This document shows positions 11,683 to 53,458 of a DNA stretch of 64,000 nt, piece by piece. The stretch's first letter is position 1. Each line of letters starts with the position of its first letter. The translations under genes and the position numbers were made by a program. The notes beneath the pieces are model-generated. The model was not told the DNA's origin and did not search any database. It saw nothing but the letters and a program-made list of their open reading frames with translations. Where the stretch lies: positions 2,356,001 to 2,420,000 of the forward strand of contig NZ_CP033169.1 of the NCBI RefSeq assembly GCF_003691585.1, read 5' to 3'. This DNA is from Biomaibacter acetigenes. Its GTDB lineage: Bacteria; Bacillota; Thermosediminibacteria; Thermosediminibacterales; Tepidanaerobacteraceae.

Positions 11683-13237
11683 TTATAAATCAGATTCCAT
11701 CAATGATTCTCCGGTCATTTCTTCCGGCTTTTCAATATTTAAAAGTTCCAGCATGGTAGGTGCCACATCTGCCAGCTTCCCCGGGTGCAGCCTGTAGTGT
11801 CTGTCGCCCACCAGGATAAAGGGCACGGGATTGCTGGTATGGGCGGTATGGGGTTCGCCGCTGGTATAATCCACCATCTGTTCCGCATTGCCGTGGTCGG
11901 CGGTAATGAGCACGGTGCCGCCCTTTTCACGGATGGATTCTACCACCCTTCCTATACATTTGTCAACGGCTTCCACCGCTTCTACTGCCGCCTCAAAAAC
12001 ACCGGTATGGCCTACCATATCTGAATTGGCGTAGTTCAATATGATGACATCATATATGTCTTCCCGGATTTTTTCTATGACCTTGTCGGTGACCTCATAG
12101 GCACTCATTTCCGGCTTCATGTCATAAGTGGCCACTTTGGGCGATGGAATCAGGATACGGTCCTCGCCGGGATATGACTTTTCCACGCCGCCGTTGAAAA
12201 AGAAAGTAACGTGGGCGTACTTTTCCGTCTCGGCTATGCGAAGCTGTTTCAGTCCGGCCCTGGATATCACTTCAGCAAATATATTGTCAAGGGATTGAGG
12301 TTCATAGGCGATGTGGGCGTTTTTTACCTTCACATCGTACTGGGTCATGCACACGAAAAGCACCGGGAATAAACCCTTTTTACGCTCAAAACCTTGAAAA
12401 TCCTCGTTGCAGAAGGCATAGGTAAGCTGCCGGGCTCTATCGGGCCTGAAGTTAAAGAAAATAATCGAATCTCCTTCTCTCACAGTGCCCCGAGGTTTTC
12501 CATTTTTATCCACTATTACCGTGGGCACCACGAATTCATCGGTTTCTTCCCGGGCATAGCTCTTTTCAAGGGCTGCCAGGGCATTGTCGGCTTTCATCCC
12601 CTCGCCGAAAACAATTGCATTATAGGCCTTTTCGGTCCTGTCCCATCTCTTATCTCTATCCATGGCATAATAGCGGCCGGCGATGGTGGCTATCTCACCG
12701 ATGCCAAGCTCGCCCATCACGTTTTCAAGGCGTTTTATATATATTCCCGCATTGGCCGGCGGCACATCCCTTCCATCGAGAAAGGCATGAACATACACCT
12801 TTTTCAAGCCTTCCTGTTTTGCCATTTTCAAAAGGGCCAGAAGATGGTCTATATGGCTGTGCACCCCCCCCATCGGATAAAAGCCCCATCAGATGCAGGG
12901 CACTGTCATTTTTTCTGGCATTGTCCATGGCATCCAGCAAAACCTGGTTTTTAAATAAGCATCCCTTTTTTATATCCTCGCTGATTCTGGTAAATTCCTG
13001 ATAAACAATGCGGCCTGCTCCCAGATTCAAATGACCAACTTCCGAGTTGCCCATCTGCCCTTCGGGTAGTCCCACGGAAAGGCCGCTGGTTTCCAGGATA
13101 GTATTGGGATAATACCGCATGAGTTTATCAAAATTGGGGGTTTGAGCTTTCAGGATGGCGTTTCCTTCGGCCCGCTCATTGATCCCCCATCCATCGAGGA
13201 TCATTAACATTAATGGCTTTTTTGACACTGTATTCAA
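11683..13237 (-). pseudogene. gpmI: 2,3-bisphosphoglycerate-independent phosphoglycerate mutase, split by an apparent +1 frameshift
   Basis: The enzyme converts 3-phosphoglycerate to 2-phosphoglycerate using two Mn ions and a phosphoserine. The N-terminal frame starts at 13237 (LMILDGWG; catalytic Ser65 in [10 protein letters not shown]) and reads to LLSDGG. The continuing sequence [16 protein letters not shown] is found in another frame from about 12873 to the stop at 11683, with the metal motifs [10 protein letters not shown] and [12 protein letters not shown] intact. The switch is at a run of eight G on the coding strand (12864-12871); seven would restore one 517-aa protein of normal length. 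Everything else is conserved, so a sequencing error or very recent mutation is likely. Neighbours: tpiA 3 bp upstream, eno downstream. Confidence 0.9.
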
Positions 13238-17549: not shown

Positions 17550-18940
17550 TTAATACCTTTTTCTCTTGGCTGATGATGGGATGCCTATCTCCTCCCTGTA
17601 CTTTGCAACGGTCCTTCGAGAAATGATAATACCCTTTTTCTTTAAATCATCGGCTATTTTCTGATCGCTCAGCGGATTGTAGGGATCTTCGCCTCCGACC
17701 ATTTCTTTTATCATTTTTTTGATGCTCTCGGAGGAAGTAGATGAACCATTGGTATTATCCAGGCCGTTTTTAAAGAAAAACTTCAGTTCAAACAGCCCCC
17801 GGGGAGTTTGAACGTACTTTCCGCTTATGGCTCTCGAAACGGTAGACTCATGAATACCCACCCTGTCGGCGATCTGCTTCATGGTAAGAGGTTTGAGACA
17901 TGTGACGCCGTAATCCAGGAAATCCCTCTGCACTTCTACTATGGTGCTAATCACCTTGTTTAAGGTGATGCGGCGCTGTTCGATACTTTTAATGAGCCAT
18001 AGGGCTGAATCCAGTCTTTGAGATAAAAATTTGGATATGTTGGATTCCCGGTTTTCTGAATAAAGGAGGGAACGGTAATAGGAATTAATGGACAGCCTCG
18101 GTGATACACTGTCATTCATGATTACCACATAATCATTGCCCACCTTTTCAATAACAGCATCCGGAATGATATACTGGGTATCATTCACAGAAGAGAAATT
18201 CCTTCCGGGCTTGGGATCCAGCGTCAATATAACATCTTTAAGCCTCTGAACTTCGGAAAGGGATATGTTTAGCGCCTCGGCAATCCTGCTGTAACGGGCT
18301 TCAGCCAGGTCCTTCAGGTGGCCGGTTATTAATTCCTTTATTTTGGGCATATCTATATTTCTCTGTTCAACCTGAATCAAAAGGCATTCAATAAGGTTGC
18401 GTGCTCCGATTCCGGCAGGCTCGAAGGTCTGAATAAGCTTCAATACCTTTTCCACTTCTTGTTCGGATACTTTTAAAAGTTTCGCAGCCTCGGCAGTGCT
18501 TATAGTCAAATAACCCCTTTTATCAAGGTTTCCTATAAGAAACTCCCCGATTTTAAATTCCGTCCTGGATATAGAGCAAAGGTGAAGCTGCATTATGAGA
18601 TGTTCTTGAAGAGAAGGTGTTGAGGATACGAAATTTTCAAATCCCAATTCTTCTTCTTTTTTTCCAGCGGAAATCTCAAAAAATCCAGGTCCGAACAATC
18701 CTGAAAATAGTCCTCCCAATCAATAGTGTCGGAATCCTTTTGGCTCTGCTTATCAATGATATCATCATTTTTGGGAATATCCTCATTCAAATCCAACAGG
18801 GGATTTTCAAGAAGCTCCTGTTCTATATATTCATCGAGTTCCAGTGCGGACAGCTGTAATATTGTGATGGCCTGCCTCAACTCCGGTGTCATGACAAGCT
18901 TTTGCGTTTGTGAAAGCGTGAGGCTGAAACTTGCCTGCAT
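17550..18940 (-). pseudogene. rpoN: RNA polymerase sigma-54 factor, split at a -1 slippery sequence
   Basis: Sigma-54 directs transcription from -24/-12 promoters with AAA+ activators. Frame 1 starts at ATG 18940: the activator-interacting N-terminus (LSLTLSQTQKLVMTPELRQAI, then ELLENPLLD) and the acidic linker up to FPLEKKKK. It then ends after 18 further codons. The core-binding domain, helix-turn-helix (MKQIADRVGIHESTVSRA) and RpoN box (SRRTVAKYREE) continue in the -1 frame to 17550. The junction is A7 on the coding strand (18657-18663), read GAA-AAA-AAG, so it contains A-AAA-AAG in frame. Eight A, or a -1 slip, yields 463 aa of normal length. Sequencing error, real mutation and recoding are all open. 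Confidence 0.88.
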
Positions 18941-21997: not shown

Positions 21998-23010
21998 TTA
22001 AATAAGTGAATGTTCCACCATATATTCCGCTATCTGTACCGCATTGTAGGCGGCTCCCTTTCTCAAATTGTCAGCCACGATCCAGAGGTTGAGGCCGCAG
22101 GGAATCGAAAAATCTTCCCGGATTCTGCCGACAAACACATCATTTTGCCCTGATACATCTTTCGGGAGGGGATAAATCCTCTTTGGGGATCATCCACCAC
22201 TTTCACTCCGGGAGCCTGCGACAGAATACTGCGGGCACCGTCGGCGGTAAGCTTTTCAACTGTTTCGATATTGACCGCCTCGGAATGGCAGTTGAAAACA
22301 GGAACCCGCACCGTGGTGGCAGTCACCGCTATACTTTCATCTCCCATAATTTTCTTTGTCTCCCTCACCATTTTCCATTCTTCCATGCTGTAGCCCGTAT
22401 CATCAAATACATCTATATGGGGCAAGACATTAAAGGCTATGGGATATGGATAAACCCGGGGTTCGGGCTTATCCCCGCTTAAAATTTTCCTTGACTGGAG
22501 TTTCAATTCCTCTATGGCATCCACACCAGTCCCGGATACAGCCTGGTATGTAGACACCACTACCCTTTTTATCCTGGCCTTTTCATGAATTGGCTTTAAA
22601 ACCACCACCATCTGAATGGTGGAACAGTTGGGATTGGCAATGAGCCCTTTGTGCCGGTGAATATCACCGGGATTTACCTCCGGAACCACCAGAGGCACTT
22701 CGGGGGCCATCCTGAAGGCGCTGCTGTTGTCAATGACAACGGCTCCCCTCTTTACTGCTTCCGGCGCCAGCTCCATGCTCACTTCATTGCCGGCGGAGAA
22801 AAGAGCTATATCTATCCCCTCAAAAGCCGAAGGCATCGCTTCCTCCACCTTTATCTTTTCTCCCCTGAATTCCACCGAATGACCGTTGGACCTGGCAGAA
22901 GCCAGAGGTAAAATTCTTTTCACCGGAAAATTGCGCTCCTGTAAAATCTTGATCATGGTCTGTCCTACCGCTCCGGTAGCTCCCACCACTGCCACATTGT
23001 AACTCTTCAT
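21998..23010 (-). pseudogene. asd: Aspartate-semialdehyde dehydrogenase, copy 1, apparent frameshift near the 3' end
   Basis: Asd reduces aspartyl phosphate to the semialdehyde for lysine, threonine and methionine. Start ATG 23010 (GAGGGG 8 nt upstream). GATGAVGQTM is the NADPH loop, NPNCSTIQM holds the catalytic Cys, and NCHSEAVNIE and the PQRG region follow. After PQRGFIP the frame goes off-family and stops at 22063. The normal end (LPKDVSGQNDVFVGRIRE ... LNLWIVADNLRKGAA ... VEHSLI) is in the adjacent frame to 21998. One more C in the run at 22168-22171 (coding CCCC to CCCCC) restores a full protein. It has its own promoter, 380 bp downstream of lysC, and duplicates the intact asd at 24427. 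Confidence 0.88.
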
Positions 23011-23087
23011 TTCAGACACCCCTCTAAATTAAAAATGTGAAATATGAGGACGTGATGAGCAGTCTCACTCATCATTATATGAAAAAT

Positions 23088-24426: not shown

Positions 24427-25440
24427 CTAAATGAGATTCATTTTAATTAAGGTTTCCGCAATCTGGACGGCATTGAGTGCGGCGCCTTTTCTCAGGTTGT
24501 CGGCCACCACCCACATATTCAGGCCGTTTTCTACGGAAATATCCTTCCTTATCCTGCCCACATAAACATAATCGGTGCCGGCCAGGTCCGCCGCAAGAGG
24601 ATAAAGGTTTTTGGAAAGGTCATCCATTACCTTCACACCGGGAGCCTTCTCCAGGATTTCCCTGGCTTCTTCCACACTGATGGGCTTTTCGGTCTCTATG
24701 TTGATAGCCTCCGAATGGCAGCGCACCACGGGAATCCTGACAGCCGTGGGACAAACGGCGATGCTGTCATCATGAAGCATCTTATGGGTCTCATTTACCA
24801 TTTTCATTTCTTCCCTGCTGTAGCCGTTTTCCATGAAGACATCAATGTGGGGAATGGCATTAAACGCAATCTGATGAGGATACACTTTTACATCAAGCGG
24901 CTTTCCCTCGGTATAAGCTCTGACCTGGCTTTCCAGCTCTGCCATGCCCGGTATGCCCGTTCCCGAAACAGCCTGGTAAGTAGAGACAACTATCCTCCTT
25001 ATTGTGAAATGGTCATGAAGGGGTTTTAAGGCCACCAGCATCTGAATGGTGGAACAATTGGGATTGGCAATGATTTTCTTGTGCCATTTGAGGTCTTCCG
25101 GGTTAACCTCAGGGATTACCAGCGGCACAGCAGGGTTCATACGAAAGGCATTGCTGTTGTCAATGACTATACACCCCTCGGCCGCTGCCACCGGGGAAAG
25201 TTTCAGGCTGGCAGCCTCACCGGCGGAAAAGAGAGCAATATCCAGGTCTTTAAAAGCCCCTTCCCTGGCCACCTCCACAGAGACTCTCTCACCCCTGAAA
25301 ACAATCATCTTTCCTTCATTTTCCGGTATGTCCAGGGGTTTTATCTTTTCTATGGGAAAGTCCCTCTGCTCCAGTGTCTTTAGCATCTCCGTGCCCACAG
25401 CTCCCAGAGCTCCTACAACACCTACCCGATACTTTTTCAT
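24427..25440 (-). CDS. asd: Aspartate-semialdehyde dehydrogenase, copy 2 (intact)
   Basis: 337 aa, full length. GALGAVGTEMLK is the nucleotide loop, NPNCSTIQMLVALKPLHD contains the catalytic Cys, RCHSEAINIE and the complete C-terminus GLNMWVVADNLRKGAALNAVQIAETLI are present. GGGAGGAG lies 6 nt before ATG 25440. It is the first gene of the asd-lysC transcript, driven by a consensus promoter at 25613-25642. It is clearly paralogous to the frameshifted copy 1 downstream. Confidence 0.95.
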   Translation of the reverse strand: MKKYRVGVVGALGAVGTEMLKTLEQRDFPIEKIKPLDIPENEGKMIVFRGERVSVEVAREGAFKDLDIALFSAGEAASLKLSPVAAAEGCIVIDNSNAFRMNPAVPLVIPEVNPEDLKWHKKIIANPNCSTIQMLVALKPLHDHFTIRRIVVSTYQAVSGTGIPGMAELESQVRAYTEGKPLDVKVYPHQIAFNAIPHIDVFMENGYSREEMKMVNETHKMLHDDSIAVCPTAVRIPVVRCHSEAINIETEKPISVEEAREILEKAPGVKVMDDLSKNLYPLAADLAGTDYVYVGRIRKDISVENGLNMWVVADNLRKGAALNAVQIAETLIKMNLI

Positions 25441-25612
25441 GCAAGCTCCTCCCTGATATTTTATTTAATAATGAAACCGGATATGGCCTGATAATAAAAA
25501 AAATAGTTCTCATTTCAAATACATTTGTTCTTATAATGAAAACATTAGCTGAATATATTCGACATTCCGTTCCAAAATCCTTTTTTTGAAAAATACTATC
25601 TATTTTTTTGTG

Positions 25613-49896: not shown

Positions 49897-50018
49897 AGTC
49901 CGGGGGATCTCAAAAAGGAGGGATAATAAAATACGGGCTTACACCGCCTATCATCGTTGCCGCTGTCGCTGCTTGAACTATAAAATATAATAACGCTACC
50001 ACATATGGAGGGAAATAC

Positions 50019-53000
50019 ATGTTACATAAAAAGAAGTTTTTGTGCCCCTGGAAAAGCAGGTTTTTACCTATTTTCCTGGCAGTTTTGATTATGCTGGGTA
50101 GTTTCCCGGTTTTCGCCCAGGAAATATCTCTCTATGAGGAATCTCAAAACTTTCCTGTAACAAGGGGAGTGACTTACGAGGGTAAAACCCTTTTTACATC
50201 CCTGGGATGGCAAAAGATTCACATTCTGAAAGTGGACCTCTCTTCGGAAAATATTGACATTGATTCTCTTCTGCCGGGAAAGGGCCTCTCGCAAAGGGAA
50301 GCTCTCAGCAAGATGGTGCAGGAGAACAATGCCGTAGCGGGTATAAATGGCGATTTCTTTATCATGGCCACACCTTCCGCTCCCATAGGAGCCCAGGTGA
50401 AAGACGGCAGGCTGGTATCATCGCCTTCCAACCGCAAGGACATGGCAGCTTTTGGGCTAACCATGGATAAATTGCCTGAGATTCTCCGGATGGAGTTTTC
50501 GGGAAAAGTTGAAGCTCCCGATGGAACCACCTTCGATATCGGAGGAATCAACAAAATTGGAGATGGTTACGGTAAAATACATATATATACCCCGGATTTC
50601 GGAACCGTAACTCCCGCAGTTTCCAATACTGTTTCTGATCTCACTTTCGCCATTGTAAGAAACAACAGGATAGTAAATATTATAGACGGAAAAACCGCCG
50701 ATATCCCTGAAGACGGTCTGGTGCTGGCTGCCGGGGGAGACGGGGCCAACTTCCTTAAAAGCCGTTTTAGCACTGGAGACACCATAAAGCTGCACCTCAA
50801 TATGACTCCGGATATTTCAAACTTAAAGATGGCCCTGGGCGGCGGCGCGGTTCTGGTGGAAAACGGAGCGGTTCCTGCCAGTTTTTCCCATGATATTCCC
50901 GGCAGTAATCCCCGGACCGCTGTCGGATTTTCTGCCGACAAAAAGACTATGTTTCTGGTGGTGGTAGACGGTCGCCAGGCCGAAAGCCGCGGTATGACCC
51001 AGAAGGAAATGGCGGAACTCATGGTGAAGCTCGGGGCTTCTTTTGCCCTGAATCTTGACGGGGGCGGCTCCTCCACCATGGTGGTGCGCCCTCTGGGAGA
51101 AAAGCAGCCTCAGGTGATAAATAGCGTTTCAGGTGGAGTGCAAAGGTTAATAACCAACGGCATAGGCATCTTTTCCAGAGCATCCGCCGGAAATGTCTAT
51201 GGTCTCAAGATAGTGGCCGATTCCTTTAACATCCCCAGAGGGGGGCACCGGACCTTCGAAATGCGGGCCTACGATAAAAATTACAACCCTCTGGATATAG
51301 ACGTAAGCAGCGTGAAGTGGAGCGTCTCCAACAACCTCGGCACCTTCAAAAATAATGTGTTTTTCGCCGTAAAATCCGGTTACGGCCAGGTGACGGCCAC
51401 CCTGGGGAGCATTAAGGCCACCCAGGAGATAAAGGTGCTCTCCGACGGGGCCGCGCTTTCGGTGAGTCCCGGAAAAGTTCAGATAAATAATGGGGCAAAA
51501 AAGGCCTTTGATGTCACCATAATCGATAAGGAAGGATATAAGGCGCCTGTGGAACCCTTTGATGTAAAATGGGAAGTAATGGGCAATATCGGAAGCTTTA
51601 ACAATGGAGAATTTGTAGCCGGTGAAAACCCTGGAAGCGGCGCCATCATCGCCGGTTTTTCAGGTTTAAAAGCCGGAGCTCTGGTACTGGTGGGCATGGG
51701 CGAAAAGATTCTGGATGACTTTGAAAAACCCGATGGCAGGGAATTTTCTTCATATCCATCCACTACAGGGGGGGCCTTCTCCATCGTGACACAGCCGGAA
51801 CCGGTAAATAGCGGCACATCTTCCGGAAAACTTGCCTATGAATTCCCGGTCGGGAATAGCACCAGGGCAGCTTATGTAAACTTTGGCAGCAATGGTCTTC
51901 CCCTACCTGTGGGAACCGTCAAGCTCTCGCTTATGGTCTACGGCCAGGCCCGCGGTCACTGGCTCCGGGGTACGGTGACAGATGCTGATGGAAACGAATA
52001 CAATATTGATTTTTCAAAGGATGTAAACTGGCAGGGGTGGAAGAAGGTGGAAGCTGAGCTTCCCGATGGCAAGCAGCCCTTCAGCTTGAAACGCATATAC
52101 CTGGTGGAAATAGATCCCAGCGACAGTGATTCCGGAGCCATATATCTGGATAATCTTGCGGCAGCGGTGGCCGGAAAATACGATAGCTCGCTCCTACCGC
52201 CGCCATCTCCATGGTTTGATACGGCAAACACTTCTTCAAAAACCGGAAATATTGTCATAGGCGCTTTTGGGAGTTTAGCCATGGATTCCAGCCCTGAAAG
52301 CCAGAAAATGGCGAGTCTTATAGCGTCTTTAACAAATCAATACAGACCTAAAATGAATTTAATAGCAGGCCAGACATCTATAAACAGCAAAATATCATCC
52401 AACAGTCCGCTGGCAGCTTTCATAAAAAATATGAAAACTGCAGGTACGGGTTATAAAACTTTAGCGGATAATGAAGCCTTCTTCATCTTCCTGGATTCCT
52501 CCAGAGGAAGTCTGAGGCTTACGGATTACAACCAGTGGATAAAGCTCAGGCAGGATTTGAATGCACTACCGATATCCAAAACAGTATTCATAGCCATAGA
52601 TAGAGCGCCCGAAACTTTTTCAGATTCCCTGGAAGGCAACCTGCTGAAAAAAATACTTTCAGACTATGTAAAAAATAAAAACCTCAACATCTGGATGCTT
52701 TACGGCGGGGCCGAACGTTTCGGTGCCAGAATGGAAAACGGTGTGCATTATGTTTCACTGCCCGGAACCAATGCAAAAGAACCGTCTGTGACCATTTTCA
52801 ACATTGGAAGGGGCCAGGTATACTACAAGGTAGTGCCGGTAGTAGAAAAAATAGTATCCGAAACCCCGGCCGTAAAAAGGGTCTTGCTGCCGATCTGAAG
52901 ATATATGGTATATCTCCTGGAGGACAGAAGGTCCTTCTATCTTACCCCTATGCCGTAGAATGGAAGCTTTCCAGCAGCAAACTGGGCACTTTTGATTCGA

Positions 53001-53458
53001 GGGAACTTGTATTCAAGGCAGCCAGCACCGGCACTCTGAACTTCACCGTCAAAACTGCGGGAATTTCCTCCGCATTCAACCTGACTGTGGTGGATATGAC
53101 TGTAAAAGTCAACGGCAAGGAGATTTCCTTCCCGGACCAGCAGCCTTATCTCAATAAAGACGGGCGCACCATGGTGCCGGTAAGGTTTATATCCGAAAGC
53201 CTGGGGGCGAAAGTCAGCTGGGATGAAAAGACAAAGACAGTAACTATAACGGGCAAAGACAGAGCAGGTGAAAGCAGAACCGTTAAATTGAAGATCGGAG
53301 AAAACAAGGCCGTTATAAACGGCAAGGCAGTAACCTTCGACACAAGAGCCGAGTTCAAAAACGGCAGGACCATGGTGCCCCTGAGGTTCGTGAGCGAAGT
53401 CCTGGGCGCAAAGGTAACATGGGACCAAAATACAAAGACCGTCGATATCAATGAATAA
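50019..53458 (+). pseudogene. Secreted phosphodiester glycosidase (NAGPA/DUF2233) with C-terminal copper-amine-oxidase-N domains, apparent frameshift
   Basis: ATG 50019 has GGAGGG upstream. A signal peptide (KSRFLPIFLAVLIMLGSFPVFAQ) precedes a glycosidase domain (about residues 50-395) with AGINGDFFIM, NPRTAVGFSAD and LNLDGGGSSTMVV. Big-2-like repeats, a carbohydrate-binding-like domain (about 560-720) and a phosphoesterase-like region follow. The frame stops at 52898. The adjacent frame continues without a break (ADLKIYGISPGGQK, then two Cu_amine_oxidN1-like units with GRTMVPVRFISESLGA and GRTMVPLRFVSEVLGA) to 53458. One extra A in AAAAA at 52874-52878 would fuse them. Such proteins trim wall or exopolysaccharide phosphodiesters outside the cell. 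Confidence 0.78.

Follow-up and report, generated by a model that had tools for sequence, protein, structure and literature searches.

Does the interruption of the sigma-54 gene in the sequenced genome of Biomaibacter acetigenes reflect the way in which RpoN is made, a mutation of the strain, or a fault in the stored sequence? In the window, the whole 64,000-nucleotide stretch of DNA that was analysed, rpoN lies on the minus strand and its ORF translation falls into two frames, the C-terminal frame standing at -1 relative to the N-terminal one. The N-terminal ORF (18593..18940, minus strand, 115 aa) carries the Pfam domain Sigma54_AID (E 4.3e-20) and consists of about 95 sigma-54 residues, after which about 20 residues are read out of frame up to a stop. 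The C-terminal ORF (17550..18719, minus strand, 389 aa) carries Sigma54_CBD (1.9e-64) and Sigma54_DBD (6.9e-62) and matches TIGR02395. The sigma-54 domain set of AID, core-binding and DNA-binding domains is complete in Pfam, all three being over cut-off, and is spread over the two frames. At the junction, GAA AAA AAG (18656..18664, minus strand), an A7 run occupies 18657-18663 and the heptamer A-AAA-AAG lies in frame at 18656-18662, the N-terminal frame reading CTG GAA AAA AAG AAG AAG AAT TGG and the C-terminal frame GGA AAA AAA GAA GAA GAA TTG GGA. A slip heptamer of the form X-XXY-YYZ, as known from dnaX-type -1 frameshifting, is therefore present in the zero frame. The initial annotation, which had placed the frame break exactly at A-AAA-AAG, proved correct in every detail checked (ORFs and coordinates), as did its statement that a -1 slip restores the rest of sigma-54, since the -1 frame carries on the homologous protein through CBD and DBD. 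The joined product has 463 residues and shares 92.9% amino acid identity with RpoN of a relative from the same genus (G001).

The genome consists of one contig of 3,398,311 bases and has a single rpoN over the DBD cut-off. The idea that the interrupted gene is a dispensable copy beside a second rpoN was rejected, the two other matches being weak and below that cut-off. An RNA element at the junction was also considered and rejected, there being just two matches, both far under their gathering scores.

Among 61 genomes searched, including that of B. acetigenes itself, the C-terminal part of rpoN was matched in 46; the matches in G021, G007, G042 and G059 are incomplete or extend past a contig end. 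In total, 36 loci of relatives were read across the junction, five of them on contigs taken as duplicates by their length, which leaves 31 distinct relatives. In all 31, rpoN stands in a single frame at the junction. The same-genus relative G001 reads GAG AAA AGG GAA at this point, without a slip heptamer, and in the multiple alignment of the junction the B. acetigenes genome (G000) alone is shorter, by one base. An in-frame A-AAA-AAG is seen there in one of the 31 relatives (G004), in an intact frame 0 and unsplit, so the heptamer can arise at this place through codon drift in a Glu/Lys-rich linker. A slip site conserved together with a split frame, as in dnaX-type systems, was found in none of the 31 distinct relatives. 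The initial annotation had itself stated that recoding would be refuted if relatives showed an unbroken frame and lacked a conserved slip site, and this is the picture that the relatives give. As a separate observation, rpoN of a member of another family (G029:C26:1006-2147) is also found in two frames, elsewhere in the gene, the change falling near residue 262 when counted on the 389-aa query.

Heptamers of this kind are frequent in the genome. Across 340 kb of it, the 241 ORFs of 150 aa or longer contain 44 in-frame A-AAA-AAG and 55 in-frame A-AAA-AAA, with at least one such heptamer in 75 of the 241. Of 17 natural A8 runs in these ORFs, 10 yielded a slip heptamer in frame once one A was deleted, and for this reason the coincidence of break and heptamer is weak evidence. 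An indel in a long A run tends to make the very site that seems to explain it, and the slip heptamer in rpoN would be the by-product of a shortened A run in a Glu-Lys-Lys-Glu stretch.

Similar interruptions occur in neighbouring genes. Four genes of the window, namely gpmI, rpoN, asd and a gene whose counterpart in G004 encodes 1144 aa, are each broken in frame by a single base, in most cases within a homopolymer: G8 in gpmI, A7 in rpoN, A5 in the 1144-aa gene and one short A/G-rich site in asd. Base-level alignment of breaks with relatives covered these four. PF06415 found no iPGM-type gene in the genome besides gpmI, in which the frame changes at 12864..12871 (minus strand), where the G8 run is one base longer than in relatives. 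The asd gene (22063-23019, minus strand) loses its C-terminal end through a one-base frame change at 22174..22188, about 22181, the exact base not being fixed by the alignment. Next to it, at about 24450-25441, is a second, intact asd; it falls within about 1.46 kb of sequence, situated between lysC and the following aligned block, that is missing from G001 at this position. The 1144-aa gene (50001-53455, plus strand) changes frame at 52865..52880, about 52873. Its assignment to mfd turned out to be wrong, the sole NCBIfam match, to a primary-amine oxidase model, being weak and under the cut-off; the gene has no confident family, and its end reads like what we take to be a copper-amine-oxidase N-terminal-like repeat.

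Over the syntenic stretch, genes of relatives were compared both with the B. acetigenes genome and among the relatives, and a gene was counted as split only when each of two frames accounted for a different, complementary portion of the query. With G010 queries, 4 of 16 genes were frame-split in B. acetigenes and none of 37 in the relatives (0/13 in G001, 0/15 in G004, 0/9 in G013); with G004 queries, the figures were 4 of 44 against 0 of 48 (0/26 in G001, 0/13 in G010, 0/9 in G013), and with G013 queries 2 of 10 against 0/8 in G001, 0/9 in G004 and 0/8 in G010. Fisher p values were 0.006 for the G010 and 0.049 for the G004 queries, the gene sets overlapping and the two tests not being independent. 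Rows with internal stops in one frame only, which look like over-long or false ORFs, were left out for all targets (for the G004 queries, two in B. acetigenes and three in G001). Two rows of G001 queries in B. acetigenes were also left off the list of broken genes: one is a 105-aa ORF with a stop, in two pieces of 76-79% identity, the other a 212-aa ORF of 61-65% identity. Each is no more than a possible break. For the same genes, single-base breaks are thus in excess in B. acetigenes compared with relatives, as expected of residual assembly indels.

The rpoN sequence itself bears no mark of decay. Compared with G001, dN/dS is 0.045 for the C-terminal part (364 codons) and 0.064 for the N-terminal part (93 codons), and with both halves at about 0.05, strong selection must have acted on the gene up to the very recent past; since rpoN is constrained as a whole, the break is either very recent or not real. 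The genome also keeps about 29 unsplit strong matches to PF00158, the sigma-54 activator domain, which would be pointless without sigma-54. Among the strong PF00158 rows, tallied from the match tables, 2 of 31 genes are split in B. acetigenes and none of 47 in G001 and G004 together; in these counts, complementary neighbouring rows were merged as one gene, and weak AAA rows were left out (four in G000, three in G001, four in G004). The two split genes lie elsewhere in the genome, at G000:C1:3092204-3092372 and G000:C1:2726625-2726847, and each show two overlapping frames.

Unrelated genes of one assembly that carry single-base breaks in or near homopolymers, absent from relatives, have the look of residual indel errors, and we infer that the breaks in the window are probably errors rather than mutations. 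For rpoN, the uninterrupted relatives and the several neighbouring genes broken by similar single-base slips make such an error the leading explanation: judged from the sequence comparisons, the break is very probably a residual single-base homopolymer indel error of the assembly. The stored A run would then be one base short of a continuous sigma-54 frame, and the cell would most likely carry an ordinary, uninterrupted rpoN. The plain alternative that the initial annotation had offered, one missing A, is favoured. Several points stand against an assembly error, however. The genome is a single contig and 99.56% complete, qualities that a poor assembly might lack; the site in asd is no long homopolymer; an intact asd lies next door, so that the broken copy may be a true pseudogene; and a change found in the B. 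acetigenes genome only is also expected from a recent true mutation.

Such a mutation, a real indel that arose recently in the sequenced strain, for example in laboratory culture, and that knocked out rpoN and with it sigma-54-dependent transcription, ranks second after assembly error and is rather unlikely. It would explain why the change is confined to this genome, A7/A8 runs are mutable, and the good conservation of both halves fits a very recent mutation too. However, the retained PF00158 matches belong to a domain whose members work with sigma-54, and mutation in a living strain does not readily account for the other housekeeping genes of the stretch that are broken in like manner. Far less probable is that RpoN is made through -1 ribosomal frameshifting on A-AAA-AAG or transcriptional slippage on A7, in a compensating or regulatory role. 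The heptamer in frame at the break, the low dN/dS of the downstream frame, a tRNA-Lys with UUU anticodon and one 30-base fold at spacer 7 (z -2.27) agree with recoding, but the remaining evidence does not. The arrangement is conserved in no relative, and the heptamer of G004 sits in an intact frame 0. By eye, no Shine-Dalgarno-like purine run is present in the 30 bases upstream of A7, and the 97 bases after the slip site fold no better than shuffled sequences (z -0.22). Only the fold just mentioned fell below z -2 among 20 combinations of spacer and length, and it carries little, because 20 overlapping trials can give one by chance; a significant downstream stem of the dnaX type was thus found neither in the 97 bases nor in the 20 combinations. 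The initial annotation, which had seen no obvious Shine-Dalgarno stimulator or downstream stem and had taken this to speak for an error, is borne out here. The genome has tRNA-Lys with both CUU and UUU anticodons and therefore lacks the single-Lys-tRNA set that favours slippage at AAG; the CUU species should lower slippage at AAG without excluding it, and according to PMC4066793 a single Lys tRNA is no absolute requirement. In that study, frameshift-prone heptamers in E. coli that lacked stimulators exceeded the background without a motif, about 0.055%, by factors of 2.1 to 10 (PMC4066793). Recoding of rpoN would also leave the gpmI break unexplained. The proposal that RpoN arises by recoding thus fails on conservation, on stimulators and on the similar, unrelated breaks in neighbouring genes.

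Programmed or compensatory frameshifting in rpoN is therefore unlikely, and no rpoN or sigma-54 with a programmed frameshift was found among the 20 of 201 literature matches listed, nor did the literature collection searched contain a paper joining rpoN, frameshifting and slippery. The narrower variant in which a real, lineage-specific indel in rpoN is offset at A-AAA-AAG by -1 frameshifting at a low level, or by transcriptional slippage, appears, from the sequence evidence, slightly more doubtful still; if it were true, the abundance of sigma-54 in this strain would be set by recoding. Hardly credible is the reading in which two separate proteins are made, a 115-aa N-terminal piece and an internally started sigma-54 without region I that bypasses activators. 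The C-terminal ORF extends uninterrupted from a TTG at 18719, but inspection by eye of the 30 bases ahead of this TTG showed no clear, properly spaced Shine-Dalgarno sequence, and the frame is split at the rpoN junction in none of the relatives read.

Residual assembly error as the probable source of the break has consequences for how this genome is used. If the split goes unexamined, rpoN would enter the records as a pseudogene or a candidate for recoding, and the organism would be called sigma-54-negative despite its about 29 unsplit strong activator-domain matches. With several single-base frame breaks in so short a stretch, other broken genes of the assembly need a read check before they are interpreted.

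Compared with known systems, the rpoN site shares with dnaX-type -1 frameshifting an in-frame A-AAA-AAG heptamer and a -1 frame that continues the homologous protein. In contrast to that system, it has neither stimulators nor conservation, and the shift would serve the main product; in dnaX, frameshifting gives a shorter second product. A further parallel is offered by the singleton frameshift genes of the GeneTack survey, for which the authors state that BLAST-validated singleton frame transitions are expected to be sequencing errors (PMC3711429). Like these, the rpoN break is homology-validated, located in a homopolymer and unshared at its site, and no difference from them was found. With the RpoN family (TIGR02395; PF00309, PF04963, PF04552), finally, the B. 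acetigenes protein shares all three Pfam domains in the same order, the sole difference being that the stored sequence of rpoN here stands in two frames.
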